Part shown: positions 1 through 60,205 of the stretch, in pieces | Numbering within the stretch: position 1 is the first letter of the stretch | Layout of the letters: the number at the start of each line of letters is the position of its first letter | Assembly: GCA_017454375.1 (NCBI GenBank) | Contig: JAFTDB010000032.1 | Location: 62,001 to 126,000 of the forward strand | Reading direction: 5' to 3' | DNA length: 64,000 nucleotides | Origin: Acholeplasmatales bacterium | Lineage (GTDB): Bacteria > Bacillota_I > Bacilli_A > Acholeplasmatales > Anaeroplasmataceae | Notes under the pieces: generated by a model | Told to the model about the DNA's origin: nothing | Seen by the model: the letters and a program-made list of their open reading frames with translations, nothing else | The model's database searches: none | Program-made: the position numbers and the translations under genes

Positions 1-3000
1 TATTGTTGTAACGCCTTCAGGAATTACATAAGATGTTACATTATTGAATCCATAGAATTGATATTGATTGATTGTTGATACTGATGGAATAGTAATCTCA
101 GTTATTTCAGTATATGTATCTTCTCCACTCTTTAGATATAAATGAGCAGTTGTATTGTTCATTGGGTTAGCTTCATATGTAGCAAATGAAATATTCAACC
201 AATTAGTAATTGTGCCATCATAATTTACATTAGTTAAATGAGTAACATTCTTGAATGCTGCTGCATTAATATTTCCAATAACACTTGAGAAATAAATAGA
301 TGTTAAGCCTGAATTTTCAAATGTATTAGCAGAAATTGTAGTTACACCTGTAGGCATAATCATCGTAGTTAAAGAGCTACATCCCTTGAATGCAGCGATA
401 CCGATTGTTGTAATTGTATCTGGTAACTTAGTTAATCCTGTACCAGTTAATGATGATAAACCACTACATCCTTCAAATGCACTTGCACCGATTGATGTTG
501 TAGTTGCTGATACTTCTACTGATGTTAATGATGTATTGCCTTTAACAAATCCATCAGGAATTACAGTTACAGTTGCAGGTAATACAACTGAAGTTAATGC
601 TGTATTATTTGCAAACGCAAAGTTACCAATTGTAGCAAGTGTGCCTGGTAGACCATTAGTACCAAATGAAGTGAATCTTGTACCATAGAATGCTTCAGCA
701 CCAATAATTTCTAGACCTGAGTTTAGTGAAATGGCAGTTAAAGTATTATTTCCATAGAATGTTCTAGCGCCAATCTCAATGATATTAGCACCCATAGTGA
801 CATTAGTCATTCCATGGCCTTCAAATACACCATTATCTGTTTCACTTATAATCTTAGTTACAGGAATATTATTTAATGTATCTTTTATTACTGCTACTGT
901 TGGATTTTCTGCTTCTGCATATGTACCGAATCCAACGATTGTGTAATAAGCAGCATTGCCTTCACCAGTCTTAACATATTTGAAGTCTGGCTCCCAAACC
1001 TTAATTTCTAAATCAACTGGAGTTTCATTATCATAAACAGTAACATAACGCCAGTATGATGTAGAATTATTTTCTGGAGATAGCTTCTTATAGAATTTAA
1101 CTGTTAATGTCTTACCAGTTAGGATAGATGCAAATGCTGTCCTGATTGAATTCCATCCAGCATCTGTTGATTCTGTATCAGAATGATATCCATAATATAC
1201 AGTTAAGTTAACAGCAGGAATTACATTAGTACCAACTGATGAAATAGTTGATGGAATAGATATCCATTTTAAGTTTGTACAACCTTTGAATAAATCATTG
1301 CTTAATGTAGTTAAGCTTACATTAGCAGTATCATTTGTAACATGAACTAGCTCTAAGTGATCTAGGCTAGTACAGTTTTCAAATGCACCTGTGCCAATTG
1401 CAGTTATTGTTTGAGGTATAACTAATGTTACAAGAGCAGTTCCCTTGAAGGCATAATCGCCAATTGTTGTTGTGCCTGAAGAAATTGTTAAATTATTTAA
1501 ATGTGTTGCACCATCAAATAGATGAGCTGCGATAGCTGTAGTTGCAGTAGGAATTACTACATTATTAATAGATGTACAGCCAGCAAATGCACCCTCACCA
1601 ATTGCAGCCACTGAATCTGGTAGGCTGATAGTAGTTAATGCAGTATTTGCAAATGCATAATTACCAACTGATGCAACAACTGAAGTTGCAGCGAATGTTA
1701 CTTCTGTTAATATTGAACAACCCTTAAAGGCGGTGTTGCCAATTGCTGTTACTGTATTAGGAATAATAATATCAGCAAGAGATGTACAGCCTTCAAATGC
1801 TGATGCATTTATTAATTCTAAGCTATCAGATGGTAATTCATTAAATGTACCATCATCAAATCTTAGCATGCTCAAAGAACTACATCCCTTGAATGCAGAT
1901 GAATCAATTGTCTCTAAAAGAGATTTATTACCTTTTATAAATGTTATCTTAGTGATACCACTACATCCCTCAAATGCACCTGCACCGATAGTAACAAGAT
2001 TTTCTGAAATAGTTAATTCAGTTATTGCAGTTATATTCTTGAATGCATCAGTATCAACTACACGAATAGGAATATTATTTAAAGCCGCTTTAATAGTAAC
2101 AGTTGTATCAGTTGTGAATTTTCTTGTACCAACACCTGTTACCTTATAGTAATCATCAGCACCATTTTTAACTAATATATATGTGAAATCTTGACCATAT
2201 TTAGTTGGTGTATTATTTACATAATGCCAATAAGATGTTGAATTCTCAAATGGATCAAGATACTTATAGCAAACGATCTTAGCATATAGATTTTCTTGAG
2301 TAGCTTCACCAATCAATGCAGTATTACCGCCAGCCACTGTCATTGTGTTAGTCCATGTTGATACTTCTGTATCTGTTACATAATTATCGCTATCAAAATT
2401 TTTTGAATTTCTACCACCATAGAATACTGTTGTTAAGTTGTTACAATACATGAAGGCATTTAATTCAATGCTTGTAACAGAGGCAGGAATAACAATTTGA
2501 GAAATCTTTGTGCTTTGGAATGCACATGACTTAATTGTTGTAACTTCATGTGGCATACCAACTGAGGCAAGCTCAACGCATCCATCAAATAATGATGTAC
2601 TAATTACAGTTACCTTGGCAGGAATATCAATTGAAGTAAGCTTAATACAGCCCTCAAATGCGTAATCTCCAATTGATGTTACTGTTACTGGTAATATTAC
2701 TCCGTTAAGCTTTGTACAGCCTCTGAATGTACCACCATTAATTGCTAAAAGCTTAGCATTAGCTGTAGTATTAGCAAATGTGAATGTATCAAGTGAAGTC
2801 ATTCCTCTAAATGCATTATCACCAATTGTCTCAATTGAGGCAGGAATTGTTAATGTAGCTAGTGCTGTACAACCCTTGAATGCATCATTACCAATTGAAG
2901 ATAATGTAGAATTAGCTTCAAATGTTACAGATGTTAAACTTGTACAGTTTTCAAATGCGCCAGCACCAATTGATGTAGTTGTATTAGGAATTACAATTGT

Positions 3001-6000
3001 TGATATCTTAGTTCCTCTTAATGCATAATCACCAAATGATGTAGTTGTGGCACTTATTGTAAGTGTAGAAAGACTACTATCACCATCAAATAGGTGGTCG
3101 CTTATAACTACAGCTTTTGTAGGCATTGTAAATGATTGTAAAGCTGTACAGCCTGCAAATGTATATGCTTCTATATAATCAATCTTAGATAGATCTGCAA
3201 ATGTTACAGTTCTTAAGTTAGTTTGATTTTGGAATACATAAACTGTTGAATTTGATACTTCTTTTGAAGTTATCTTTCTAACATCTAATTCTCCTGCATA
3301 TTCTGGAGTACGTAATAAAGCCTTAATAGTGATTGAATTATTTGTAGCTGTAAATTCTACAGTACCAATACCAATAATTTCATAATATCTATCAGTAACT
3401 GCATTTACATCATTAGGATCATCTTTTATTTCAACATATTTATATTCTAAATCAGCTGGCCAAGTTGTTGGCTTGTTATCAACAAAGCGCCAGTAAGATG
3501 TTGAATTATTAAGTGGATTCCAATCTTTATATAAATAAACATTTAAGCTTGGATTAGATAATTTAGTCTTAGTGTTATCTTCACCTGTACCGTTGCCAAT
3601 TGATGCAACTAAAGCATCCCATGCTGTTCTTTCAACATTTGCAGTGTATCCATAATATACTCTACCAATATTTGCATTACCATCAAATGAATCAGCACCA
3701 ATTGTTGCTACTGTAGATGGAATAGTTACATCACGGATATCACAATCTTTAAATGTACCCACTGGAATACTTGTCCATTCTGCAAACACATATACAACCT
3801 GTAGGCTTGAGCATCCAGCAAATGCATTAGTACCAACTGTAGTTAGGCTTGCAGGAATAACTAAATTGTTATGACCATTTCCAAGTGATGTACAGTTAGC
3901 AAATGATGAATTTCCAATAGATGTAACAGCACTGTGGAATGTAACACTTTGAATGTTTTTGAATCCATAGAATTGATAATTACCAATTGTTAGGATTGCA
4001 CTTGGAATAGCAATCTCAGTAATTAAAGCATTATTTACATAGAAATATCTAGCTTTTGCATTATTCATTGGTGTAGAGCATTCATTAGTAAATGTAATAC
4101 CACACCATGTTTGTAGGTTAGCAGCATAGTATACATTTTCTAGGTTTGTACAACCACTAAATGCATCGCTACCAACAGATGCTAATGTAGAAGGTAGATA
4201 TAGAGTAACTAAGCCAATCCAATCTTTAAATACATTATTACCAATATTTTGAATGTTTTCACTAAGTGTTAATGTAGTAATTGAGGTTACATTACCCCAA
4301 GTTGTTGCAGCGGCTGCAGTAACAGCTTTAACTGGTTTACCATTTAATGTTGCTGGAATTGTTAATGAAGTAACATTAGTATTGAAAACCAATGTACCTT
4401 TACCAATAACATTATATGAAACTACTACATTGTCTTCTTTTACTTCTTCATATTCGAAATCTTGTCCGTATACGCTTAGTATACCTTGTACAGCACCATT
4501 AGTAACATAATGCCAATAGCTTGTAGAATTACTAATTGGATTTAAGCGTGAATAATAATATACAGCTGTAACTGATGGTATATTACCATTTACAGTTTTA
4601 CCTTCATCAGCCGGATTATCACTTATAGGAGTTGAAACTATGTTTGCCTTTAATGCTGTCCAATCAGCTGCATGTGTATCACCAGCATCTGAATCATCAA
4701 CACCATTATAGCCATAATAAATATTTGCAATTTGATAAACGCCAGCAAATGCATTTCCTTGAATTTCTGTTAATGTTGAAGGAAGTGATAATACAGTTAC
4801 CATTTGACATTCAGCAAATGTATATGGAGCAATCGTAGTTAAAGGTGCCTTTATGAATAATGACTTTAATGTATTCAAACGTTCAAAGGCATGTTCTTTG
4901 ATTGATGTAATAGTATTAGGAATAACTAGCTTCTCAATCTTTGCAGCATTTGTAAATGCATATTCTTTTATTGTTGTAATTTGTGAAGCAAATGTAATAT
5001 TTGTTATATTTTTAAATCCATAGAATTGATATTGCTTAACAGTTGTAATGTTTGCATCAGTTGGAAGAGTAAGGTTAGTAACCTCAGTATATGTATTACC
5101 ACTCTTTAACATGAATGCTAAGCAAGTAGGGTTAGCCATTGGGCTTGAATAAGCATTAGCAAAATCAATAGCCATCCAATTAGCTAGAGTACCATCATAA
5201 TTCATCGAAGTTATTGATGCGCCTGCTATACCAAAGTTGAATGCATCAGTACCAATTGTTGTAAGAGCAGAATTCATTGTAACAACAGTAACTGACTTAT
5301 TATTCTTAAATGCATCATTGCGTAAAGTAGTAAGTGATGTAGGAAGAGTAATCTTAGTATATTGTGTTGCTGTTGAAGAATCATCAGTTGTACCAAATGC
5401 AAAATTGCCAATTGTTGTAACACTGCTTGGTAAATAAAGCTCATTTGTATGAGTTGTACCATTTACTACAGTAGTTTTTAGCTTAGTATTCTTAAATGCA
5501 TTAGCCTTAATTTCTACAAGGTTAGTATTTGATACGAATGTAATTTGTGCTAAAGCTGTACATCCTTCAAATGCACTTTCACCAATTTCAATTACATTAG
5601 TACCAAAGGAAATAGTTTGAATAGTTAATCCCTTGAAGGCATTATCAGCAATCTTCTTAACTGGATAATTATGTGCATCCTGTGTATCAGGATTTAAGAA
5701 TTCAGCAGGAATAATTAAGTTTGTAATTGTTGAATAAGAACCTTTACTTTTTACAACGAAATACTTAGTGTTAGCATCAACTGTAAAAAGCTCATATTCT
5801 AATTCAGCATTATAGTTAACTGGGTTCTTAGAATTATCGATAAAATGCCAATAAATTGTTGAATCTGATGTTGGCATATTAGCTGAATAATAGCTTAAAT
5901 AAATGCCAACTTGATTTCTATTATCTGTAATAGTTGCAGAGAAAGCAGTGGCAGCTATTAAAGGTTGATCAGTAGCCCAGTCTGGGTGTTCTACTGTTCT

Positions 6001-9000
6001 ATCACCACGATAGAATATATCAGTTAATGCAGTACAGCCATCAAATGCATGCTCATCAATTTTACCGTCAGTACCTTGCTCTGTTGCTTTATGTAAAATA
6101 GGTAGAATGATATATCTTACAGCAGTATTTTGATAGAATGCATATCTACCAATATTCTTTACAGAATCTGGCATGTAGATATATGTAGGTGATTTGAATC
6201 CATAGAATTGGTAATCACCAATAGTTGTTGTACCATCAGGTATAACGATATCTGTAACAATTGAGTAGCTATTATTAACATAGAAGTAAACTCTTGTTGT
6301 ATATTGAAGTGGGTTAGAATTCTCATCAGTAAATGTCATTCCTAACCAATTAGTGATACTACCACCATAATATACTTCCTCAATGTTTGTATTAGTGAAG
6401 GCTTTAGCTCCAATAGATGTAACACTAACTGGAATTCTAAATGTCTTAATAGTCTTCATACCATAGAATTGATAGTTACCAATTGATGTATTTTCTGCAC
6501 TATTTGTGATAATCACTTCTGTTATAACCTTATAACGAGTTTGGTTATATGCAAATGTAACATTACCATTTTCATCTAATACAAGTAGACCTTCATTGTT
6601 TTCATGGGCATTAGCAAAAGGATTTGCATATTCATCTGCAAATGTAATATTAATCCAATCATCTACAGTACCCTCAAAGTAAACGAATCTTAACATTTGT
6701 TTAGTTGTTTCATCACTCATAAAGAAGGCATGCGTACCAACAGTCTTTAATGTCTTAGGGATTAAGACACTAGTTAATGCTGTGTCGCCTTGGAATGCAT
6801 AATTACCGATAGTTACTAAGCTACTACCCATAGTAAGTTCTGTTAATGTTTTAATGTTCTCAAATGCACTAGCACCAATTGTCTTAACATAATAACCTAA
6901 ATGAATCTTAGTTAAAAGGCTATTATTCTTAAATGCATATGGAACTACTTCTCTTATTTCTATTCCACGATATTTATCAGGAACAGTAATCTCAGTACCA
7001 GTAATTGTACCTAAACCTAGTACTTGATAATATCTATCAACAACCACATTATCCTCTTCAACTTCAATTAGCTTATAAGCAAACTCAGTAAGTTTAATAT
7101 GATTATTTAAAGCAAAGGCATTAGTTAATTCATTAACAACGACATAGTTTTCACCTGTAAAGTTCAACAAACCATTATCATAAGTAATTGTATGTCCATT
7201 TAATTGTAAAATTGTATTGTTTAAAATGATATCAAAGGCTTGAGAGATATCATTATCTAATACTACATCAACATCCAATGTGATATTGTAATTTGAAATA
7301 GTATTTGCTGTCCCATTTGTATGTAGCATTGCTTTGAATGTTGCTAGGTTATCATTTGTGACAGTTAGATTAGTGCCACCAGTAACGACACTCTTATACC
7401 ACATATCACTAACGTTAGTAGATGTATCACCATCTAGATAACGGTACTTAACATATTCTAGCCATTTATCTGTACTAGTGAATTGAGTATTGTTCCAGTC
7501 ACCATATGCTGATTGATAATAGAAGAATGTGAAATAATCTTCATTAATTCCATCGAAGGCACCTTGGCCAATATATTCAATAGAATCTGGGATAATTAAG
7601 CCTTGGATTTGGCTTAATCCGTAGAATGATTTAATACCAATAGTCTTGATTGTACCAGCTGACATTGCTAAATCAGTTGGATCTGCAGCAATTCCTTTCT
7701 CAGAATCTGCAGGTAAACCACCATTACCTATGAATGATAAATCAGTAATACAATTGAATCCATAGAATTGATAATTATCTACACTAGTCTTACCATTTAA
7801 ATTTAGTGTTGTTAACAATGTATATTTGTGAGTTTCATATGTAACCGAACCACTTGGTTCATCTAAATAATAGAAATTCTTGATAACCTTATCGTGATTT
7901 GCAGCTTCTACATCATTTGACATTGGGTTAGCAAATTCATTATCGAAAGTAATTGTTAACCAATGATCAACATTAGAATAATAATATACAGTTGCTAGTG
8001 TAGAAACATCCTTAAATGCATCTGCTTCTATTTTATCGATAGTTGCAGGAATCAAAATAGTATCAAATATAGCGCCCTCAAATGCACTTTCACCAATAGT
8101 TGTTGTAGATGGTGATAAAGTAACACTCGCAAGATGAGTATCACCATAGAATGATCTATCATTAATAACAACTACACCACTAGGAATAGTAATGCTTGTT
8201 AAGGCAACACAGCCTTCAAATGCACTTTCACCAATTGAAGTCACTTCAGATGGAGAATCAAATGTAACACTTGCAAGAAGTGTAGAATTCTTAAATGCAC
8301 CTGTACCAATAGTTGTAGTTTTAACTGGTAATGTAATAGCAGTCATCTTAGAGCCTAAGAATGCATAGTTACCAATTGTAAGTGATGTTAATGCTGAATT
8401 GATTGTAATATTAGAGCTTAAGAAGCCAGATACTAATTCAGTATCATCGAATGCAAATGCATAATTACCAATAGATAAAGAGCCACTACTATTAATAGTT
8501 GCTGAAGTTAAACCACTATTTCTAAATGCACTATCACCAATAATGATTACTGATGATGGAACAGTAATTGTTGTTAATCCTTTACAATTTTCAAAGGCAC
8601 TCTCATAGATATGAGTTAAATTAGCACCTGCAAATGTAACTGATGTTAATGTTGTAACATCCTTGAAGGCAGCCTCACCAATAGTTACTAATTCTGCAGG
8701 TAATGAGATTGTAGTAATTATTGTCTTTTCAAAGGCACTCTCATAGATGTTATTTAATTTAGAATTTGTAAATGTAACAGTAGCTAACTTAACGTCATTA
8801 TAGAATGCTTTTTTACCAACATTTAATGATGTAGCACTTGTAAATGTTATTGTATTAAGAAGTGAACATCCTTCAAATGCAGATTCAGATAATGTTAATA
8901 AGCCACTACCAAATGTAGCTGTAGTTAGCTTTGTACAAGTCTTGAATGCTTCTGTACCAATAGATGTTACAGTATCAGGGAATGTAATTGTTACTATCTC

Positions 9001-12000
9001 ATTTCCTGTAAAGGCTTTAGATCCAATAGTTTGAAGTACTGGAGTAGTACCAAATGATAATGTAGCAATCTTTGCACCTTCAAATGCAGAATCACCAATT
9101 GATAATAATGTGTCAGGGAAGCTAATCTTAGTAACTTTAGCACATGAACCAAAGGCATTAGCGCCAATTGATGTTAATCCAGCAGGAAGAATGATACCAT
9201 CGCTTTGATTAGCTGAATTAGAATATTGTAAGTCGCCACAGTTATAGAATGCACTGGCGCCTAATGTTGCTGTATATGTACTAGTTAAATCTTTAAATGA
9301 TAATTGTTTTAGCTTTGAACAACCACTAAATGCTTCTGAGCCAATTGTTAAATCATCATTCTCAGTTAAGAAAGCAACTGCAGTTATATTTGTGCATCCA
9401 AAGAATGCACGTGAGCCAACATCAGTTAAAACATCATTTAATGTGATAGTTGTAAGAGCTGTACAATCCTCAAATGCACTCGCACCGATAGATGTTAAAT
9501 ATTGATTTAATGTTAATGAAGTAATGGTCTTATCATTTTTGAATGCTTCATCCATAATACCAACGATATGGTATCCATTAATCTCATCAGGAATTACGAT
9601 TGCTGCAGTATTAATAGTACCCTTATCCTTGATGTAGTATGTAGTTGATGATGCAGCTTCATATGTGAAGTCTCTTCCATATAGCTCTGGAGCATCATTA
9701 ACTAAATGCCAATAATTTATAGAATTAGAAATAGGCTTCAATGAAGAATAATATCTGATCTTAGTTGAAATAGTTGTATCATAATTCATTACATTATCAG
9801 ACCATTCAGATTCAATTTGACCATAATAGAAAATATTAGCAAGTTTACTATCACCATTAAAGGCATTAGCTCTAATAACAGCAAAGTATGCTACTTCTTT
9901 TTCTGCATTTACTTGCTTGTAGTATTGAATTGAAGTATCTCTTGATGTTGCTGAAGATTTTACATAGTTACCACTAGAATCTTTTGTGTAATATACATTA
10001 GCAGCATAGGTTGGAATTCCTGTAGAATCAAAATCAACAGGACGATAAATTATGCCATTATCTGTACTTGTACGAGAATAGTAGCTTCTATTTTCTGTTC
10101 TTTCAGCCGCTGTATCAAGTACATATACGCCATCTTCTTTGTAATAATAAGTGTTAGTTGCATATGTAGGAACTACAGGTGCATTATCAAAATCAACCTC
10201 AGTATATTCGATTTGAGTAGTTAATATCTTAGTTGTATTGCCAGTTGGAATAGGTAGTATGAAAGATACTAGATTAGTACAACTAGCAAAACAGTATTGT
10301 TGATATTCACTTATTTTGTCATGTAATGTTAATGAAGTTAATGCAGAACACTGATATAACATATATTCTGGAATAACTGTTAATGTATTAGGAACTACAA
10401 ATGATGTAATTCTTGTATTTGCAAAAGCATAGCTACCAACAGATGATAATGAAGTACCATTTGCAAAAGTTATGCTTGTTAAGTTTGTAATATTGTGGAA
10501 TGCTTTTTGTTCAATAGTTGTAACACTTGCAGGAATTTCAACTGAAGTAATTACAGTACCAACGAATGCACTATCCCCAATAGTTTCTAAGCTAGATTCT
10601 GATGTAAATGTTAATGTAGCAAGTAATGAAGCACCTCTAAATGCTTCTTTACCAATAGTTAAAACATTTGTTGGAATAGTTAATGTAGTAATCTTACTGC
10701 ATCCATAGAATGCACCTTCAGAAATAGTTAAAGCATTTGAGCCACCAGTTATGACTAAAGTAACTAAATCATCACAGTTTTTGAATGCATTCTTGCCAAT
10801 ACCGAATGTAGTAACAGATTCTTGGTCTTCACTATAAGAATAATATTGTCTATTTTCTGTAGCCTCAGCTTCAGTATCCTTTACATATGTACCAGGAGTT
10901 GATTCATAATAATATGTATTAGCTTGATAAGTAGTTATTTCATCAAATGTTACAGGTGTATAAACTGGTGTAACTACTACTTCTGTAACATCCTGTAAGC
11001 TTGCAGGAAGTTTAACTGAAGTAATGTTAGTAGATTCAAACGCACTTTCACCAATTGTTGTAAGATTTGAATTAGCTTCAAATGTCAATGTAACTAATTG
11101 AGTTATTGACTTAAATGCTTCTTTTTCAATTGTCTCTACACTTGCAGGAATTGTTATTGATGCTAGATGTGTACCACTAAATGCATGCTCGCCAATTGAT
11201 GTAAGAGTTGAGTTAGCCGCAAATGTAACAGCTGTTAAGCTAGATGCATTCTTAAATGTATCCTTTTGAATCTCAGATAATGTTGAAGGTAGACTAACTG
11301 TTTGTACGCCTGAAGTTTCAAATACACCATAAATTGTATCCTCAGCAGGATCAATAACAGTACTTGTTTGTCCAACAGTTTCTGTTTCTTCTAGATAGCC
11401 TAAATTAATTAAGCCCTCTGGTAATACTACAGTTGTTAGATTTGTACAACCATAGAATGCACCCTCACGAATTGTAACAAGGTTAGAGCCTGTTTCAAAT
11501 TCTAATGTTGTTAAAGATGTACAACCTTTAAATGCATTGTAAGAGATTGCAGTAACACTTGCTGGAATCTTAATTGTAGTTATCTTAGTACCAAAGAATG
11601 CATATGTACCGATTCTTGTTGTTGCAGAATCATAAACCATCTCAGAAGTTGGATTATTAGGATCAGAATGAACTTCTGGATATGTTACAGTTGTTAATTT
11701 AGATGAGCCATAAAACATTCTAGATGAAATCTTAGATAAGTTCTTAGGTAAAACAATACTAACAAGTGATGTACAATTTTCAAAAATTGATTCACCAATT
11801 GTTGTTAAACCTTCTGGCAATGTAATATCAGTTAATGATATACAGCCCTTGAATGCTTTTGCTTCAAGTGTGTTAGTAACATTAGCAAATACTATTGTTG
11901 TAAGTGATGTGCAGTTTTCAAATGCTGATTCTTCTACTGTTGTTAAGCCTGAGTTAGCACTATCAATAACGTTAGAATCACCTGAAGTTGTACTTTTTAT

Positions 12001-13455
12001 AACAGTTAATGATGTACAGCCTTTGAATGCTTCCTTCTTAATTGTTGTAATATTATTAGATAAAACAACAGTTGTAAGTGATGTACAACCCTTGAAAGCA
12101 TATGAAGAAACTAATGTTAAAGTGTCTGGAAGTGTAATAGATGTAAGGCCACTGTTTTCAAATACACCTTTTTTATCTGTAGAACCAGCAGCACTACCAA
12201 GTGTAGTAACATCAGGTAAATTGATGCTAGTTAAGGCGCTACATCCATAGAAAGCTTCATCCTCGATTGTTGTAAGCTGACTACCTGCAGCAAATGTAAG
12301 TGTGCTTAAGGATGCACAGTTTTCAAATGCTGAATTACTGATTGTAGTTACTTCGCTACCAACCTCAAATGAAGTAAATGATTTTTGATAGAAAGCATTT
12401 ATACCAATAACTTTAATAGGTAAACCATTTAAAGTAGACTTCATGGTAATTGATGTATCTGTAACATTACCAATACCAGTTACTTCATAATATTCGCCAT
12501 TAGTAGATAATTTATAATCTAGATCTCTTGGCCAAATAGTTGGTAGACCATCAACAAAGCGCCAATAATCTAATGAATCCATTAATGGTTCTGTATCTAA
12601 ACGGTATTTAAGCTTATTTATTGCACCACCTGCAGTAGTTGAAATAAGATAAGTTTCGTTCGTAGAGTGAATCTGTGATGTTAGACCAAAATTTAGACCT
12701 AAATCAGCTGAATCGATGATTTGATTCTTTGCACCATCGAAATATGCATATTGTAGGCTAGTACAGCCAGCGAATGCATTTTCTTCAATGTTGTTAAGTC
12801 TTTCTCCAACGTTCATTAGTGCAGTCGTAATAGATGGAGTTAATATAATATAGGAGATGTTGCTACATCCTTGGAATGCACCTGTTGAAATTTTTTGAAC
12901 ATTTGTAAATGTTACGGTTTGTAAATTTGTAAAACCATAGAATTGATATTTATTAATTGTTGTTACTGTATTAGGAATGGAGATGTTTTCTAATAAAGAG
13001 TATCTAATGTTATCATGCTTGTATTTACCAGCATCATCTTTGATGTAGAACTTTCTTTCACCTGTAAAGGCACGAGAAAATGGGTTTGCTGAGGCACTAA
13101 CGATGTCAATTGCAAGCCAATCTTCTAAAGTTCCATCATAAAATATCGCATCAAGGTTTAGGCCATCTGCACCAAATGCGTTATTTGCGAACTGTTTATA
13201 ATCTGTTGTTATATGTGCGTATGAGGCAGCTGTTGGATTTGAAACAGAGTCAATAACTAGACCTGCGTCAGCATGATCTTTATCAACTGGTGAAGTGTTG
13301 TATAAAGCTGCAGTACCAGTTTCGATAACTGTAATATCTTCTACTGGTTCTTCAGAAGCATATACTTCACTTCTTGATGCCATGAATGCCCCCACCAGGG
13401 CAAAGAGCGATACTGCCCCAAATATTGTGAATAATAAGTTCTTTCTGTTTTTCAT
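1..13455 (-). CDS. Giant secreted BspA-like leucine-rich-repeat surface protein (C-terminus off window)
   Basis: The frame is the same at the start codon and at the left edge of the window, giving at least 4485 codons. I sampled it but did not check every codon. The start at 13455 has a GGAG site 9 bases upstream. The N-terminus is a Sec signal (MKNRKNLLFTIFG, hydrophobic core, VYA cleavage site). The rest is mostly BspA/LRR_5-type repeats of about 23 residues, of the form I-x-x-x-A-F-x-G-C-T-x-L-x-x-I-x-L-P. They are interrupted by about eight linker modules. Seven of these carry Y-W-[RH]-[FYL]-V followed by DF/DL-x-Y and YY-x-V-x-G-x-GT (near 12.55, 9.70, 5.84, 4.51, 3.48, 2.21 and 1.05 kb), and the one near 7.0 kb lacks YW. 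Three YYY-x-x-x-G-x-YV inserts lie at 9.9-10.95 kb. Proteins of this family are cell-surface adhesins or binding proteins. The ligand is unknown, and the anchoring signal would lie outside the window. Confidence 0.93.
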   Translation of the reverse strand, partial: MKNRKNLLFTIFGAVSLFALVGAFMASRSEVYASEEPVEDITVIETGTAALYNTSPVDKDHADAGLVIDSVSNPTAASYAHITTDYKQFANNAFGADGLNLDAIFYDGTLEDWLAIDIVSASANPFSRAFTGERKFYIKDDAGKYKHDNIRYSLLENISIPNTVTTINKYQFYGFTNLQTVTFTNVQKISTGAFQGCSNISYIILTPSITTALMNVGERLNNIEENAFAGCTSLQYAYFDGAKNQIIDSADLGLNFGLTSQIHSTNETYLISTTAGGAINKLKYRLDTEPLMDSLDYWRFVDGLPTIWPRDLDYKLSTNGEYYEVTGIGNVTDTSITMKSTLNGLPIKVIGINAFYQKSFTSFEVGSEVTTISNSAFENCASLSTLTFAAGSQLTTIEDEAFYGCSALTSINLPDVTTLGSAAGSTDKKGVFENSGLTSITLPDTLTLVSSYAFKGCTSLTTVVLSNNITTIKKEAFKGCTSLTVIKSTTSGDSNVIDSANSGLTTVEESAFENCTSLTTIVFANVTNTLEAKAFKGCISLTDITLPEGLTTIGESIFENCTSLVSIVLPKNLSKISSRMFYGSSKLTTVTYPEVHSDPNNPTSEMVYDSATTRIGTYAFFGTKITTIKIPASVTAISYNAFKGCTSLTTLEFETGSNLVTIREGAFYGCTNLTTVVLPEGLINLGYLEETETVGQTSTVIDPAEDTIYGVFETSGVQTVSLPSTLSEIQKDTFKNASSLTAVTFAANSTLTSIGEHAFSGTHLASITIPASVETIEKEAFKSITQLVTLTFEANSNLTTIGESAFESTNITSVKLPASLQDVTEVVVTPVYTPVTFDEITTYQANTYYYESTPGTYVKDTEAEATENRQYYSYSEDQESVTTFGIGKNAFKNCDDLVTLVITGGSNALTISEGAFYGCSKITTLTIPTNVLTIGKEAFRGASLLATLTFTSESSLETIGDSAFVGTVITSVEIPASVTTIEQKAFHNITNLTSITFANGTSLSSVGSYAFANTRITSFVVPNTLTVIPEYMLYQCSALTSLTLHDKISEYQQYCFASCTNLVSFILPIPTGNTTKILTTQIEYTEVDFDNAPVVPTYATNTYYYKEDGVYVLDTAAERTENRSYYSRTSTDNGIIYRPVDFDSTGIPTYAANVYYTKDSSGNYVKSSATSRDTSIQYYKQVNAEKEVAYFAVIRANAFNGDSKLANIFYYGQIESEWSDNVMNYDTTISTKIRYYSSLKPISNSINYWHLVNDAPELYGRDFTYEAASSTTYYIKDKGTINTAAIVIPDEINGYHIVGIMDEAFKNDKTITSLTLNQYLTSIGASAFEDCTALTTITLNDVLTDVGSRAFFGCTNITAVAFLTENDDLTIGSEAFSGCSKLKQLSFKDLTSTYTATLGASAFYNCGDLQYSNSANQSDGIILPAGLTSIGANAFGSCAKVTKISFPDTLLSIGDSAFEGAKIATLSFGTTPVLQTIGSKAFTGNEIVTITFPDTVTSIGTEAFKTCTKLTTATFGSGLLTLSESAFEGCSLLNTITFTSATSLNVGKKAFYNDVKLATVTFTNSKLNNIYESAFEKTIITTISLPAELVTIGEAAFKDVTTLTSVTFAGANLTHIYESAFENCKGLTTITVPSSVIIIGDSAFRNSGLTSATINSSGSLSIGNYAFAFDDTELVSGFLSSNITINSALTSLTIGNYAFLGSKMTAITLPVKTTTIGTGAFKNSTLLASVTFDSPSEVTSIGESAFEGCVALTSITIPSGVVVINDRSFYGDTHLASVTLSPSTTTIGESAFEGAIFDTILIPATIDKIEADAFKDVSTLATVYYYSNVDHWLTITFDNEFANPMSNDVEAANHDKVIKNFYYLDEPSGSVTYETHKYTLLTTLNLNGKTSVDNYQFYGFNCITDLSFIGNGGLPADSEKGIAADPTDLAMSAGTIKTIGIKSFYGLSQIQGLIIPDSIEYIGQGAFDGINEDYFTFFYYQSAYGDWNNTQFTSTDKWLEYVKYRYLDGDTSTNVSDMWYKSVVTGGTNLTVTNDNLATFKAMLHTNGTANTISNYNITLDVDVVLDNDISQAFDIILNNTILQLNGHTITYDNGLLNFTGENYVVVNELTNAFALNNHIKLTEFAYKLIEVEEDNVVVDRYYQVLGLGTITGTEITVPDKYRGIEIREVVPYAFKNNSLLTKIHLGYYVKTIGASAFENIKTLTELTMGSSLVTIGNYAFQGDTALTSVLIPKTLKTVGTHAFFMSDETTKQMLRFVYFEGTVDDWINITFADEYANPFANAHENNEGLLVLDENGNVTFAYNQTRYKVITEVIITNSAENTSIGNYQFYGMKTIKTFRIPVSVTSIGAKAFTNTNIEEVYYGGSITNWLGMTFTDENSNPLQYTTRVYFYVNNSYSIVTDIVIPDGTTTIGDYQFYGFKSPTYIYMPDSVKNIGRYAFYQNTAVRYIILPILHKATEQGTDGKIDEHAFDGCTALTDIFYRGDRTVEHPDWATDQPLIAATAFSATITDNRNQVGIYLSYYSANMPTSDSTIYWHFIDNSKNPVNYNAELEYELFTVDANTKYFVVKSKGSYSTITNLIIPAEFLNPDTQDAHNYPVKKIADNAFKGLTIQTISFGTNVIEIGESAFEGCTALAQITFVSNTNLVEIKANAFKNTKLKTTVVNGTTHTNELYLPSSVTTIGNFAFGTTDDSSTATQYTKITLPTSLTTLRNDAFKNNKSVTVVTMNSALTTIGTDAFNFGIAGASITSMNYDGTLANWMAIDFANAYSSPMANPTCLAFMLKSGNTYTEVTNLTLPTDANITTVKQYQFYGFKNITNITFASQITTIKEYAFTNAAKIEKLVIPNTITSIKEHAFERLNTLKSLFIKAPLTTIAPYTFAECQMVTVLSLPSTLTEIQGNAFAGVYQIANIYYGYNGVDDSDAGDTHAADWTALKANIVSTPISDNPADEGKTVNGNIPSVTAVYYYSRLNPISNSTSYWHYVTNGAVQGILSVYGQDFEYEEVKEDNVVVSYNVIGKGTLVFNTNVTSLTIPATLNGKPVKAVTAAAATTWGNVTSITTLTLSENIQNIGNNVFKDWIGLVTLYLPSTLASVGSDAFSGCTNLENVYYAANLQTWCGITFTNECSTPMNNAKARYFYVNNALITEIAIPSAILTIGNYQFYGFKNIQSVTFHSAVTSIGNSSFANCTSLGNGHNNLVIPASLTTVGTNAFAGCSSLQVVYVFAEWTSIPVGTFKDCDIRDVTIPSTVATIGADSFDGNANIGRVYYGYTANVERTAWDALVASIGNGTGEDNTKTKLSNPSLNVYLYKDWNPLNNSTSYWRFVDNKPTTWPADLEYKYVEIKDDPNDVNAVTDRYYEIIGIGTVEFTATNNSITIKALLRTPEYAGELDVRKITSKEVSNSTVYVFQNQTNLRTVTFADLSKIDYIEAYTFAGCTALQSFTMPTKAVVISDHLFDGDSSLSTLTISATTTSFGDYALRGTKISTIVIPNTTTSIGAGAFENCTSLTSVTFEANSTLSSIGNDAFKGCTALATLTIPASIETIGDNAFRGMTSLDTFTFANTTANAKLLAINGGTFRGCTKLNGVILPVTVTSIGDYAFEGCIKLTSIDIPAKVTVISTSLFDGCVELASVGMPHEVTTIKSCAFQSTKISQIVIPASVTSIELNAFMYCNNLTTVFYGGRNSKNFDSDNYVTDTEVSTWTNTMTVAGGNTALIGEATQENLYAKIVCYKYLDPFENSTSYWHYVNNTPTKYGQDFTYILVKNGADDYYKVTGVGTRKFTTDTTVTIKAALNNIPIRVVDTDAFKNITAITELTISENLVTIGAGAFEGCSGITKITFIKGNKSLLETIDSSAFKGCSSLSMLRFDDGTFNELPSDSLELINASAFEGCTSLADIIIPNTVTAIGNTAFKGCSILTEVTFAATSVVASVGNYAFANTALTTISLPDSVAAIGEGAFAGCTSINNVVIPTATTAIAAHLFDGATHLNNLTISSGTTTIGDYAFKGTALVTLVIPQTITAIGTGAFENCTSLDHLELVHVTNDTANVSLTTLSNDLFKGCTNLKWISIPSTISSVGTNVIPAVNLTVYYGYHSDTESTDAGWNSIRTAFASILTGKTLTVKFYKKLSPENNSTSYWRYVTVYDNETPVDLEIKVWEPDFKYVKTGEGNAAYYTIVGFGTYAEAENPTVAVIKDTLNNIPVTKIISETDNGVFEGHGMTNVTMGANIIEIGARTFYGNNTLTAISLNSGLEIIGAEAFYGTRFTSFGTNGLPGTLATIGNFAFANNTALTSVVLPATVTVIPDGFVKGNTSLTSVEVSATTTSIGASAFEGCSGLSSLTGTGLTKLPDTITTIGIAAFKGCSSLTTMIMPTGVTTISANTFENSGLTSIYFSSVIGNINAAAFKNVTHLTNVNYDGTITNWLNISFATYEANPMNNTTAHLYLKSGEDTYTEITEITIPSVSTINQYQFYGFNNVTSYVIPEGVTTI

Positions 13456-13510
13456 AAAAATCATCTCCAATTAAGTTCTTATTAAAAAAACACTTATAAT
13501 ATTTATAAAT

Positions 13511-27414: not shown

Positions 27415-28404
27415 TTAATTTAAATAATTATTTTTAAAATCCTCAAAGCTACCATCTATCTTAGCTAGATTTTGTCTAATTATTAATTCTCTTTCTTCAT
27501 TTTTATATAGACCTATTAGGTCTTCTTCATTAAATAAAACAAATAAATTCTTCTTTTTATTTATATCTTCTTTTAGCTTAAGCAGATATTTATTCTTCAT
27601 TTCTTCTAATTCATCTAATTTGAAGATATCAGAATTTAATAAAATATAAATACCAAACATAGAGCTTACAAAGAAGCTAAATCTCATTTTAGATTTATGT
27701 TCACACATAAAATCATAAACATAAAACGCAGTCTTATAAAAATCATCAAATGTACGAACTGAGTAATGATACTTCTTATCTTTACGAGTTAGACTCTTTT
27801 TATTAAACTTCCATAATACTGTTTCAAAATCTAAATAATTAATATCTTTACGATCAATTACTGATAGTATTGAATCAGTAAAATAAGTATCCTCAAGATG
27901 CCTTATATCAGGATGGAATCTTATATTATATTCTTCTAAGAATCTTCTTTGATATACCTTACCATGCATCCATGGAAATGTATCCTTAGCTTTCTTGGTG
28001 ATTGTATCAATCTTATCATCTTTAATTATTTCTGTCTTAATATCAGTAACTAGATATTTAGGCTCATGCTTAAAGATGAAATCTAAGATTACATATAAGA
28101 CATTATCACTAGCTAATGTATCATCACTATCGATGAACATTATGTAGTCCCCACTCGTATTATCAATTCCCTTTTGACGAGCTAAGCCAGGACCAGTATT
28201 CTTATCATTTATTAGATATTTAATTTTTAATTTCTTATATCTTCTAAGAAATCTTTTTGATAATAAAACATCTGATTTATCATTAACAATAGTTAAACTA
28301 ATATTAGAAAAATCAATATTTTTTTGATTATCAATTGAATCTAGAAGTGGCTTTATATCTTCCTCTGTCTCCTTATATTGAGGAATGATAATATCGAGTA
28401 ACAT
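27415..28404 (-). CDS. Family 2 glycosyltransferase
   Basis: 329 residues. A GT-A fold is indicated by the opening LLDIIIPQYKETEEDIKPLLDSI, then NDKNTGPGLARQKGIDNTSGDYIMFIDSDD. The DSDD is the metal- and nucleotide-sugar-binding DxD motif (about residues 93-96). A catalytic-domain segment, HLEDTYFTDSIL (about 173-184), holds the likely ED base. No membrane segment is seen. It lies 8 bases after the RNase III-like gene and 31 bases before the giant surface protein gene, in one transcription unit. Glycosylation of that Ser/Thr-rich protein or of surface polysaccharide is a reasonable guess. The acceptor and sugar are unknown. Confidence 0.87.
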   Translation of the reverse strand: MLLDIIIPQYKETEEDIKPLLDSIDNQKNIDFSNISLTIVNDKSDVLLSKRFLRRYKKLKIKYLINDKNTGPGLARQKGIDNTSGDYIMFIDSDDTLASDNVLYVILDFIFKHEPKYLVTDIKTEIIKDDKIDTITKKAKDTFPWMHGKVYQRRFLEEYNIRFHPDIRHLEDTYFTDSILSVIDRKDINYLDFETVLWKFNKKSLTRKDKKYHYSVRTFDDFYKTAFYVYDFMCEHKSKMRFSFFVSSMFGIYILLNSDIFKLDELEEMKNKYLLKLKEDINKKKNLFVLFNEEDLIGLYKNEERELIIRQNLAKIDGSFEDFKNNYLN

Positions 28405-28411
28405 AAATCAC

Positions 28412-29281
28412 CTATTTTAATTCAACAATATATTTAATCATTTCATAGGCTGCAAGTCTCTTGGCAGTCTTTTTAGATGTATCCTCAGCTGAGAATGATT
28501 CTCTATATCCTTCAACTAGAACACGACATTTCCAAATGTCCATTCCATTATTAACACCCTTAAGTGCTATCTTATAAACTGGCTCATTGATATAGCCCTT
28601 TACATATAAATCCTGTAGTTGATTTATCGCATTCTCAGGATCAGGAGAACCAACAATATCAGTTATCTTTAATACTAAATTATTTTCTTCAATATAGCTA
28701 TATGCTTCCATATAAGCCTTAATGATTGCGGTAAGCTTAGTATTAGAGCTTGATTTAAATTCTTTATCAAGACCTGGAACACTAAGTGTTACATTATAAT
28801 TATTTTTAACCTCATATTTAGGTAATTCCTTAGTCTTAACCTTAGACCATTCATTAACTAATAATACATAATTCTCTTCAGGTGAGATATTTAATAAAAT
28901 ACCTTCTTCTATATTTAATAATTTATCAATTATTTCATTATTATTAGAATCGAGTATGATTGCCCCAACTATAGCTTTAAAAATAACTGGAGCCTTAGTC
29001 TTATCCTCTAAATAATTAGATAATGATAATTTATTCATTCTTTTAGTTAAATAATCATCAGATAATAATTTATTCTTAACCTCTTCAATTATTTCTTTTG
29101 AATAAAATAATTCTAAATCATCTTTATTTAAAAATTCATTTAGTAAATAAATATTTAGATAATGATTTAAAAATAGATTACCTTCACTTGTTAATACCTC
29201 ATCAAAGTTAAAGGCATTCTTAAGTAGATTAATATTATTAAATTGATAATTAATTAAATTTTCAATTTCTTTAAATTCCAT
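28412..29281 (-). CDS. RNase III-like protein lacking catalytic residues, with two dsRNA-binding domains
   Basis: 289 residues. Residues 5-26 (NLINYQFNNINLLKNAF) match the start of an RNase III domain. Residues 95-111 (KAPVIFKAIVGAIILD) match the segment that in active enzymes reads D-x-x-EA-x-x-GA-x-x-LD. The catalytic Glu is Lys102 here and the preceding Asp is Val. The ERLEFLGD region is replaced by NLFLNHYL. Residues 137-198 look like a degenerate dsRBD, and 216-287 a good one ending SKKTAKRLAAYEMI. It therefore probably binds structured RNA without cutting it, comparable in layout to mitochondrial mL44. A true rnc gene is expected elsewhere. Start with AAGGAG upstream. Confidence 0.75.
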   Translation of the reverse strand: MEFKEIENLINYQFNNINLLKNAFNFDEVLTSEGNLFLNHYLNIYLLNEFLNKDDLELFYSKEIIEEVKNKLLSDDYLTKRMNKLSLSNYLEDKTKAPVIFKAIVGAIILDSNNNEIIDKLLNIEEGILLNISPEENYVLLVNEWSKVKTKELPKYEVKNNYNVTLSVPGLDKEFKSSSNTKLTAIIKAYMEAYSYIEENNLVLKITDIVGSPDPENAINQLQDLYVKGYINEPVYKIALKGVNNGMDIWKCRVLVEGYRESFSAEDTSKKTAKRLAAYEMIKYIVELK

Positions 29282-29303: not shown

Positions 29304-29329
29304 ACGGCTAATACTGCAGTATTAACCGT
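29304..29329 (-). terminator. Terminator after tRNA-Glu
   Basis: On the minus strand, ACGGTTAATACTG and CAGTATTAGCCGT form a nearly perfect stem followed by eight T. It separates the tRNA from the RNase III-like gene, which has no obvious promoter of its own and may rely on read-through. Confidence 0.8.
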
Positions 29330-29461: not shown

Positions 29462-31147
29462 TTAAATTGATTCTAGAACCAATTTTATTCTTCTAAACAC
29501 TTCATCTTTACCAAGTATCTTTTGAATATAATAAATATTTGGAGTATTTTTTCTACAAGCAAGTGCTAATCTGATAAAGCCAGCGAAGTCTCCGACCTGA
29601 CCATTGAAGTCAGCTGGATTAGCTTTATAAGCCTTACGATCAGATGTGAAGCCCAATGTGCCGGCAAGCTCTTTTAGGTTGCCAAACCATTCATCTTCAG
29701 CACAATCTACATTGTAAGATTCCATATATGATGTTAAAGCCTTCTTTACGACATCAGCAGGAACAATCTTCGTTTCACCTTTGCCGAAGCTTACGCTCCA
29801 ATCTAGATTTGATTTATCTAGATTATCATATACTTCATTATATGCAAATGAGATAATTGGATATACATCACTATATTTTGCGTAATCCTTACGTGGATTT
29901 TCTTTTTCTCTTTCAATATTTAAAAGCTTAGTTAGGAAATCTCTATCCTTAATAATCATTTCATAGAATGGCTTATCATATTTCTTAGCCCATTCCTCTA
30001 CTTCAGCCTCAAGCACTGTAGCCTTAGTATACGCAATTCTTTCTTTTGAAATTGATTCAACCTTTTCAATATCGAATAATGCACCATCAAGTGACATATG
30101 ATCAAATGTTAATTTGAAATCATAGAATGATTTATCTAGATTTTGGTTTCTCCATTCCTCATAGTTTGAGTTAGCAATTGTAAGTAGATATTCTATGAAA
30201 CCATACTTAGGATATCCACTTTGTAAGAAGAATTCTACTGCTGCCTCATTATCTTTTCTCTTTGATAATTTTCTCTTGTTACCATTATCAAGCTTCATGA
30301 TAACTGGTAAGTGAGCGTAACGAGGGCGTTTGAATCCTAATGTATCAAATAATTCTAGGTGAATTGGAAGTGATGATAACCATTCCTCACCTCTTGTTAC
30401 AACAGTTGTACGCATGAAGTGATCGTCAACTAGATGCGCGAAGTGGTAAGTTGGAAGACCATCTGATTTCAAAATAACGATATCTTGGTCATTTTGAGTT
30501 AATTCCAAATCTCCTCTTATTTCATCATGGAAGAAGATTTTATTATTATGATCGCCCATTGATTTAAATCTAATGATATATGGCTTACCAGCCTTAATCA
30601 TTTCAATTGCTTCATCGATAGGAAGATTACGGTATTTAGCATACTTTCCGTAATAACCTGGTATCTCTTTATTCTTTTCTTGTTCATCACGTAGTGCTTG
30701 TAGCTCCTCTGGTGTAGCGAAGCATGGATAAGCACGACCTTGAATAATTAATTCCTTAATTACAGTCTTATAGATATCTGCACGCTTACTTTGAGTGTAA
30801 GGACCATAGTTACCAATTTCTTTATCATCTGATAAGTATCCTTCATCAGGAATAATATCAAATACCTTTAATTGGCTAACTAGCTCAGCACCTGAGCCTT
30901 CTATTTCTCTTTTTGTATCAGTGTCTTCTAGTCTGATATAGAATACACCGCCAGATTGTTTAGCAAATCTAGATGAAACTAGTGATGTAAACAAACTACC
31001 AGTATGTAAGAAGCCTGTTGGAGATGGTGCAAATCTTGTTACCTCAGCACCCTCTGGTAGGTTTCTCTCTGGATATCTTTTTTCTAAATCCGCGATAGTC
31101 TCGTGAATATCGGGGAAAATTAAATTAGCTAAATCTAATGAATTCAT
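29462..31147 (-). CDS. gltX: Glutamyl-tRNA synthetase
   Basis: A class I enzyme that charges tRNA-Glu. It has the HIGH-type motif FAPSPTGFLHTGSLFT (about residues 40-55), RLEDTD, and a KMSKS-type motif, KLSKRKD (about residue 288). At 561 residues it is longer than the usual 470-490, with an N-terminal extension of about 35 residues and a longer C-terminal anticodon-binding part. It directly precedes a tRNA-Glu gene. Whether it is discriminating, or also makes Glu-tRNA-Gln, cannot be judged here. Confidence 0.92.
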   Translation of the reverse strand: MNSLDLANLIFPDIHETIADLEKRYPERNLPEGAEVTRFAPSPTGFLHTGSLFTSLVSSRFAKQSGGVFYIRLEDTDTKREIEGSGAELVSQLKVFDIIPDEGYLSDDKEIGNYGPYTQSKRADIYKTVIKELIIQGRAYPCFATPEELQALRDEQEKNKEIPGYYGKYAKYRNLPIDEAIEMIKAGKPYIIRFKSMGDHNNKIFFHDEIRGDLELTQNDQDIVILKSDGLPTYHFAHLVDDHFMRTTVVTRGEEWLSSLPIHLELFDTLGFKRPRYAHLPVIMKLDNGNKRKLSKRKDNEAAVEFFLQSGYPKYGFIEYLLTIANSNYEEWRNQNLDKSFYDFKLTFDHMSLDGALFDIEKVESISKERIAYTKATVLEAEVEEWAKKYDKPFYEMIIKDRDFLTKLLNIEREKENPRKDYAKYSDVYPIISFAYNEVYDNLDKSNLDWSVSFGKGETKIVPADVVKKALTSYMESYNVDCAEDEWFGNLKELAGTLGFTSDRKAYKANPADFNGQVGDFAGFIRLALACRKNTPNIYYIQKILGKDEVFRRIKLVLESI

Positions 31148-59017: not shown

Positions 59018-59190
59018 TAAAAAAATTAAAGTCCTTAGATAATCTAAGGACGAATAATCGCGGTACCACCTTAGTTCCATACTTTCGTATAGCACTCGTT
59101 AATAAAATGTCTTCAAAGAATGTAATTCATTATTTGCTATACCCTCATTTTCACCAGCCACGAGGTCTCTATATTGTATAACAATAACTA
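59018..59190 (-). ncRNA. T-box leader (tyrosine) of tyrS
   Basis: On the minus strand the T-box AAGGTGGTACCGCG (59059-59072) is followed by the terminator GTCCTTAGAT/CTAAGGAC (59031-59051) and a T-run. Stem I features GGCTGGTGAAAA and the likely specifier TAC in GAATTACATTC (59122-59124) lie upstream. Uncharged tRNA-Tyr is expected to stabilise the antiterminator. The exact 5' end is uncertain; a weak -10-like TACAAT is at 59173. Confidence 0.92.
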
Positions 59191-59209
59191 CTAATTTCTC
59201 ATCACTAGA

Positions 59210-60205
59210 CTATTTAGTTGTTCCTCTTTTTACAACATTGTATGGTAATACAATTTTTGATTCTGTAACTTCTTCTTGTTGCATGTACTTAGTAAGAAGT
59301 CTCATTGATACAGCACCGATATCATATACCGGTGTATCAACACAAGTTAGGTTAGGTCTAGATAATACTGCATATTTAGTATTTTGTAAACCAATAACTT
59401 CAATATCTTCTGGAACTTTATATCCTGCGTTAATTGCAATATTCATAAAGCTTACAGCAATTGAATCTCTTACAGCGATAGTTGCTTCAATATGTTTGTT
59501 TTTAATAAATTCTTCGAAATGATATTTATTAATTGAAACATCACCACTAGTTCTAAAGATTAAAGGTTCTAAGCCAGCTTCAGTCATAGCCTTTTCGTAG
59601 CCTTTAACTTTATGAGTGTTTACTGTATATTTTCTAACAGTAGAAAGTAGATAGATATCCTTTTTACCTTCTTCTAGTAATTGCTTTGTAATTTCATAAG
59701 TTGCTTTTTCATAATCAATAGTTACAGTAGGAACATCAAGCTCATCGTAATTAACATTACATAATACTACTGGAATTTGATCATCTTGAATTTGGTTAAT
59801 TGCCATATGCATCTTATCTGATTCTAGTTCATCATTTAAGAATAAAATACCATCAACTTGTTCAGCAACGACAATTCTTAAGACATCTTTAATGTCTTCG
59901 CCTTCAGCAACAGAGAAAATCTTTATTGCATAATTATATTTTTTGGCAATATCCATAATACCACCAAGTAATTGTGAAGTAGATGCTCTAGAAACATCGG
60001 CCATAACGATACCGACAGTTGTAGTCTTTCTACTAGCTAGACCCTTGGCAATAGCATTAGGACGATAGCCTAATTCTTTAATAACTTTTAGGACTCTTTC
60101 TCTAGTCTCTGGATTAACTTTTTCAGGATTATTCATGACACGACTTACTGTTGCTAATGATACTTTTGCAGCTCCTGCAACGTCGTAAATTGTTGTACTT
60201 GCCAT
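59210..60205 (-). CDS. ccpA: Catabolite control protein A (LacI family)
   Basis: 331 residues from the ATG at 60205 (AAGGAAG upstream; an earlier start is rejected). HTH and hinge STTIYDVAGAAKVSLATVSRVMNNPEKVNPETRERV, LGYRPNAIAKGLASRKTTTVGIVM, then a periplasmic-binding-protein-like core (QVDGILFLND, KVKGYEKAMTEAG, CVDTPVYDIGAVSMRLL). The HTH-hinge and length fit CcpA rather than a sugar-specific LacI. CcpA with HPr-Ser-P binds cre sites to repress or activate carbon genes. A perfect cre lies upstream of its own promoter. Confidence 0.85.
   Translation of the reverse strand: MASTTIYDVAGAAKVSLATVSRVMNNPEKVNPETRERVLKVIKELGYRPNAIAKGLASRKTTTVGIVMADVSRASTSQLLGGIMDIAKKYNYAIKIFSVAEGEDIKDVLRIVVAEQVDGILFLNDELESDKMHMAINQIQDDQIPVVLCNVNYDELDVPTVTIDYEKATYEITKQLLEEGKKDIYLLSTVRKYTVNTHKVKGYEKAMTEAGLEPLIFRTSGDVSINKYHFEEFIKNKHIEATIAVRDSIAVSFMNIAINAGYKVPEDIEVIGLQNTKYAVLSRPNLTCVDTPVYDIGAVSMRLLTKYMQQEEVTESKIVLPYNVVKRGTTK

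Follow-up and report, generated by a model that had tools for sequence, protein, structure and literature searches.

A putative non-cleaving RNase III-fold protein with tandem dsRNA-binding domains in rumen Anaeroplasma-like bacteria

Some RNase III-fold proteins of mitochondria, chloroplasts, and trypanosomes do not cut RNA, but bacterial examples have hardly been described. Mitochondrial mL44 consists of an RNase III fold and one dsRNA-binding domain (dsRBD) and works without cleavage. The KREPB proteins of trypanosome editing, plant RNC1, and NFD2/RTL4 are RNase III-fold proteins that take part in RNA processing in organelles, and of these KREPB and RNC1 act without catalysis. In bacteria, binding has been separated from cleavage in the laboratory: the E. 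coli rnc70 protein (E117K, A or Q) has no catalytic activity but retains dsRNA binding (review table, PMC8708148), and rnc70 is dominant over the wild type in lambda N regulation (PMC8708148). The A. aeolicus E110K enzyme (PDB 1rc7, 1yyo) carries lysine at the same catalytic glutamate. Our literature search, which was incomplete, found no published description of a bacterial RNase III pseudoenzyme or of a bacterial RNase III with tandem dsRBDs.

The protein described here, P0001, is encoded on the minus strand of a 64,000-nt stretch of DNA (the window; contig JAFTDB010000032.1, positions 62,001 to 126,000) from a rumen bacterium that belongs to an Anaeroplasma-like rumen genus. The original prediction, made from the letters of this DNA, was a catalytically dead RNase III-like protein with tandem dsRBDs, and this reading is now backed by structure prediction, by an alignment of the family, and by a second, intact rnc in the genome. 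The ribosome-binding site AAGGAG lies directly 5' of the start codon. The features of the locus are as follows.

28412..29281, minus strand: putative RNase III pseudoenzyme gene (P0001, group A), 289 aa, ATG start, two dsRBDs
28892..29281, minus strand: RNase III-fold domain, residues 1-130 (AlphaFold2 model, VIA-align, family alignment)
28682..28879, minus strand: dsRBD1, residues 135-200, degenerate in sequence and complete in predicted fold
28418..28639, minus strand: dsRBD2, residues 215-288, with the SKKTAKR motif (PF00035; omega in close orthologue pairs)
29304..29329, minus strand: terminator-like hairpin with a T-run, between tRNA-Glu and the P0001 gene
29345..29421, minus strand: tRNA-Glu(CTC), ending 63 nt upstream of P0001 and not conserved beside orthologues
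27415..28404, minus strand: family 2 glycosyltransferase, starting 7 nt after the P0001 stop codon and not conserved

In the Pfam search, the C-terminal dsRBD of P0001 exceeded the curated cut-off (PF00035, 2.7e-7, residues 218-284), and the RNase III domain stayed under its cut-off (E of 0.7). The bacterial RNase III model TIGR02191 matched P0001 with an E of 2e-8 and 34.1 bits, which does not reach its equivalog cut-off of 166.25 bits. The AlphaFold2 model, for which 26 relatives were given as input, had a mean pLDDT of 93.8 and a pTM of 0.81 and contained RNase III-type helices up to residue 130, followed by alpha-beta-beta-beta-alpha folds at residues 138-199 and 218-288. Residues 1-130 superpose on RNase III nuclease domains in the PDB (Foldseek and VIA-align), with a Z score of 16.4 and an rmsd of 1.8 Å over 121 residues for the C. 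jejuni enzyme (3o2r, VIA-align); the best phmmer match of P0001 in the PDB was NFD2 (9h4a, E of 0.0042). The structure prediction could have returned another fold or a single dsRBD, but both the RNase III fold and two complete C-terminal dsRBDs were found, as had been proposed.

P0001 is one of at least nine orthologues, termed group A here, in the rumen Anaeroplasma-like genus, and the others are 44-50% identical to it. With P0001 as the query, matches were obtained in 23 of 55 genomes of its family, mostly of its own genus, of which four were canonical rnc genes or weak partial matches. A scan of the wider genome contigs with the single protein yielded no relatives, but the alignment query A1 yielded 33. 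The named ones come from Acholeplasmatales rumen MAGs, an uncultured Anaeroplasma, Acholeplasma oculi, Lachnospiraceae AC2029, Clostridia and Oscillospiraceae MAGs, and one Spirochaetaceae MAG; a relative is also carried on plasmid pRUMAL01 of Ruminococcus albus 7 (RUMAL_RS17030). The distribution of the family is sporadic. At E <= 1e-38, 32 of the 160 genomes searched in the order had matches, as did 16 of the 392 that were sampled from the phylum, and some of these matches span the RNase III domain alone. In the genus, four near-complete genomes (G004, G013, G024, and G026) contain no member of the family. No relatives were found in the IMG/VR scan, and an intact relative, used to search phages, gave only partial matches to the RNase III domain.

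The nearest phylogenetic relatives of P0001 are accessory tandem-dsRBD RNases III with the same layout, such as those of A. oculi (L115), Clostridia MAGs (L104-L120), and R. albus (RUMAL_RS17030). The original prediction had named mL44 as the closest analogue in layout; this place belongs to the catalytically intact RNases III with tandem dsRBDs from Tenericutes and Clostridia, since mL44 has one dsRBD. For one intact relative, L106, AlphaFold2 likewise predicts this layout, two dsRBDs included (pLDDT of 88.7), but the pTM of 0.53 leaves the placement of the domains unsure. Other arrangements were also encountered. A 147-aa open reading frame in G007 (L087:4036-4476) consists of the tandem dsRBD part without the RNase III domain. 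Catalytic-type variants with a single dsRBD (L147:2274-3164, L156:5008-5898, and L148:6253-7065) have their own conserved upstream sequence in common and are near-identical in G151 and G088, two genomes of different families with two copies in each, which suggests recent transfer.

Compared with bacterial RNase III (rnc, TIGR02191), P0001 shares the order of an RNase III fold and then a dsRBD but has a second dsRBD and has lost Phe42 and the four catalytic acids. In the family alignment, E. coli E41, D45, D114, and E117 correspond to T31, N35, V99, and K102 of P0001, and the equivalents of E38 and G44 are kept as E28 and G34. Lys102 had been rightly assigned to the position of the key glutamate, E117. 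With all four acids replaced, P0001 is probably catalytically dead, judging from these residues. The accessory tandem-dsRBD RNases III, in contrast, keep the E-D-D-E set wherever it was checked. In the alignment, the set is complete in all 6 canonical rnc proteins, in all 22 Clostridia-type loci, and in five of the six proteins of the 'C' set, and the sole exception in the latter, L015, groups with A; further family loci from broader searches have the same acids intact. The set is complete in none of the eight group A proteins and in none of the 11 proteins of a second group, B. E117 is replaced in every aligned group A protein, by lysine in seven of the eight, and the equivalent of E65 is likewise lost in seven. 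The equivalent of Phe42, the ball-and-socket residue, is gone throughout group A, except for one tyrosine. In group B (11 genomes), E41 is replaced by arginine in 10 of 11, D45 by lysine, and D114 by lysine or arginine.

It might be argued that P0001 still cleaves RNA through other residues or in a complex with another factor, as the equivalents of D45 and D114 are kept in a few group A members (L007 and L008). However, the four metal-site acids are replaced in P0001 itself, E117 is replaced across group A, and the E117K change abolishes the activity of the E. coli enzyme (PMC8708148), which makes residual cleavage very improbable. By its sequence, group A would rather be a natural version of rnc70 with more acids lost: whereas rnc70 and E110K are single changes made in the laboratory, the group A lineage is natural, and its other three acids have been lost or vary as well.

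In the phylogenetic tree, group A, L015, and group B formed one clade inside the intact family, with a support of 96/86. When the catalytic columns were removed, they still grouped together (89/93, in 87% of bootstrap trees). The clade of P0001 thus lies within a larger family of accessory tandem-dsRBD RNases III from Tenericutes and gut Clostridia. A single loss of catalysis in this clade is the simplest reading, and two separate losses are possible. The group B genes (L073, L074, L075, L076, L078, L080, and L081) share a neighborhood near rplK-rplA-rplJ-rplL, and their products have a conserved RNase III domain and a degraded dsRBD2.

Within group A, pairs of proteins are on average 34% identical in the RNase III domain, 40% in dsRBD1, and 69% in the linker and dsRBD2, so that dsRBD2 is the most conserved part of the protein and the RNase III domain the least conserved. 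In group B, the pattern is reversed (54% in the RNase III domain and 37% in the linker and dsRBD2), and the intact family has 52% and 49%, respectively. These opposite patterns suggest that groups A and B kept opposite halves of their ancestor. The omega values of two close group A pairs (Nei-Gojobori) were 0.20 and 0.23 for the whole gene, 0.08 and 0.03 for dsRBD2, and 0.21 and 0.40 for the RNase III domain; distant pairs (G000 with G011 or G012) were excluded because dS was near saturation or inconsistent between domains. Values of about 0.2-0.4 indicate that the RNase III domain, too, remains under constraint, and it may have a role of its own. A functionless, decaying duplicate of an accessory RNase III would fit the rapidly diverging RNase III domain and the variable genome position, but open reading frames are found in at least eight genomes, ribosome-binding sites are present, and the strong purifying selection on dsRBD2 (omega of 0.03-0.08) contradicts decay, an explanation that we consider hardly credible.

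Considering that the strongest constraint lies in dsRBD2, the likeliest action of P0001 is the binding of dsRNA without cleavage. We suggest, with a probability of roughly 0.55, that P0001 is a non-cleaving dsRNA-binding protein, a regulator or shield, derived from an accessory RNase III. P0001 and its sister group B would have lost catalysis from an accessory tandem-dsRBD RNase III ancestor; dsRBD2 with its SKKTAKR motif would be the main working part and may bind structured or antisense-paired RNA. The bound RNA might be shielded from the resident intact RNase III, or P0001 might compete with RNase III, and an alternative output would be the control of translation or decay through binding alone. 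The RNase III domain would then be a scaffold or a weak dimer module. The loss of cleavage, the binding of RNA, and the competition or shielding are all inferred here.

The host MAG (1.8 Mb, 92.5% complete, 7.3% estimated contamination) carries a second, intact rnc (C15:26053-26688, 231 bits) and a Mini-III-like gene on C9, and an intact rnc is present in 30 of the 31 genomes searched, the host included. It is therefore conceivable that P0001 is a non-catalytic partner that joins the intact RNase III (or group B) through its RNase III domain, forming a heterodimer with one active site and an altered choice of RNA, as with KREPB. RNase III pairs with a single catalytic member are known and provide a precedent (PMC9508840), and groups A and B, which keep opposite halves, co-occur in four genomes (G008, G015, G018, and G025). 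However, the Phe42 dimer contact is gone in group A, its RNase III domain is the least conserved part, and no group B gene was seen in the host genome of P0001, so we regard a heterodimer as possible but doubtful. We would propose only tentatively that A, with the RNA-binding dsRBD2, and B, with the RNase III scaffold, are complementary pseudoenzymes that split from a tandem-dsRBD ancestor and that, where both occur, they may form a joint non-cleaving dsRNA regulatory system, with each other or with the housekeeping RNase III.

P0001 resembles mL44 in having an RNase III fold with a dsRBD, and mL44 is among its structural matches (Z of 15.1 to 7o9m_c), so that a ribosome-associated or rRNA-assembly protein could also be imagined, the more so as sister group B lies near rplK-rplA-rplJ-rplL. 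However, mL44 is an integral ribosomal protein with a single dsRBD and P0001 has two, the family, unlike a core ribosomal protein, is not found in the four near-complete genomes listed above, and no ribosomal protein genes lie close to group A. Such a role is thus unlikely. The domain layouts of KREPB, RNC1, and NFD2/RTL4 are also unlike that of P0001. An RNC1-like cofactor of group II introns was rejected, since P0001 has one RNase III domain and RNC1 has two inactive ones; maturase matches were lacking in six of nine group A genomes (G006, G008, G012, G018, G019, and G025), some of which are incomplete.

P0001 had been placed next to tRNA-Glu and in one unit with a glycosyltransferase and a giant surface protein. 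The adjacency is correct, and the gene of a 2228-aa protein starts 31 nt after the glycosyltransferase, but the link with these genes is local: the flanks of the orthologues differ, and a terminator-like hairpin separates the tRNA. A transcript that starts upstream must read through this terminator-like hairpin to reach P0001. The context of gltX, tRNA-Glu, and glycosyltransferase is not kept among the group A orthologues: three adjoin pheS-pheT, one follows a tRNA-Arg, and others lie beside PFL or ECF-transporter genes. The one in G011 directly follows tRNA-Arg (L064:9869-9942) and a terminator-like hairpin, like P0001. Because the flanks vary between genomes, the neighborhood was rejected as a clue to the function of group A, and no conserved neighborhood pointing to an RNA target was found for this group. 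Elsewhere in the window, positions 29462-31147 encode a glutamate-tRNA ligase-like protein of 561 aa that is barely above the gltX_bact cut-off (292.7 versus 289.95 bits) and is thus divergent. A T-box leader lies at 59043-59214 on the minus strand (RF00230, 96.6 bits), and positions 1-13470 belong to a giant protein gene, an unbroken minus-strand frame of about 12,865 codons (38.6 kb) that continues to G000:C26:36876.

Many of the accessory RNase III genes have a structured leader RNA, which the P0001 gene does not. Thirteen Clostridia-type catalytic genes have a common leader of about 200 nt, with a mean column identity of 77% and compensatory changes, and a hairpin in it covers the ribosome-binding site.

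About 70-140 nt 5' of the RNase III gene: leader RNA (L104, L107-L114, L116-L120, L122, L077, L152, and L153)

In the first domain of the leader, 97.7% of the cells pair, and its covariation score of 0.268 was reached by none of 500 shuffles. A covariance model built from the 13 Clostridia-type sequences matched upstream of five catalytic genes outside the training set (L113, L077, L152, L122, and L153), with weaker matches before L142, L155, and L115; antisense matches in this search were ignored, as they mirror the partly palindromic sense matches. A restricted search added a match of 15.8 bits at L106. The leader is thus found in many catalytic members but not in all. Across 13 whole genomes, sense matches occurred only at the genes named here. 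No significant match was found in the 601 bases upstream of P0001 (best 9.0 bits, E of 0.21), and the group A and B genes that were searched lack the leader as well. Rfam gave no credible match. E. coli rnc cleaves its own 5' leader and is thereby autoregulated (PMC8708148), and it is plausible, by analogy, that the leader RNA is an autoregulatory element of the catalytic RNase III genes. No earlier description of the catalytic tandem-dsRBD family and its leader RNA was found in our literature search.

The rumen lineage of P0001 naturally has the substitution, E117K, that separates binding from cleavage in the laboratory, and it has close relatives that are catalytic by sequence. This combination would make cleavage-independent regulation by RNase III in bacteria testable with natural proteins.
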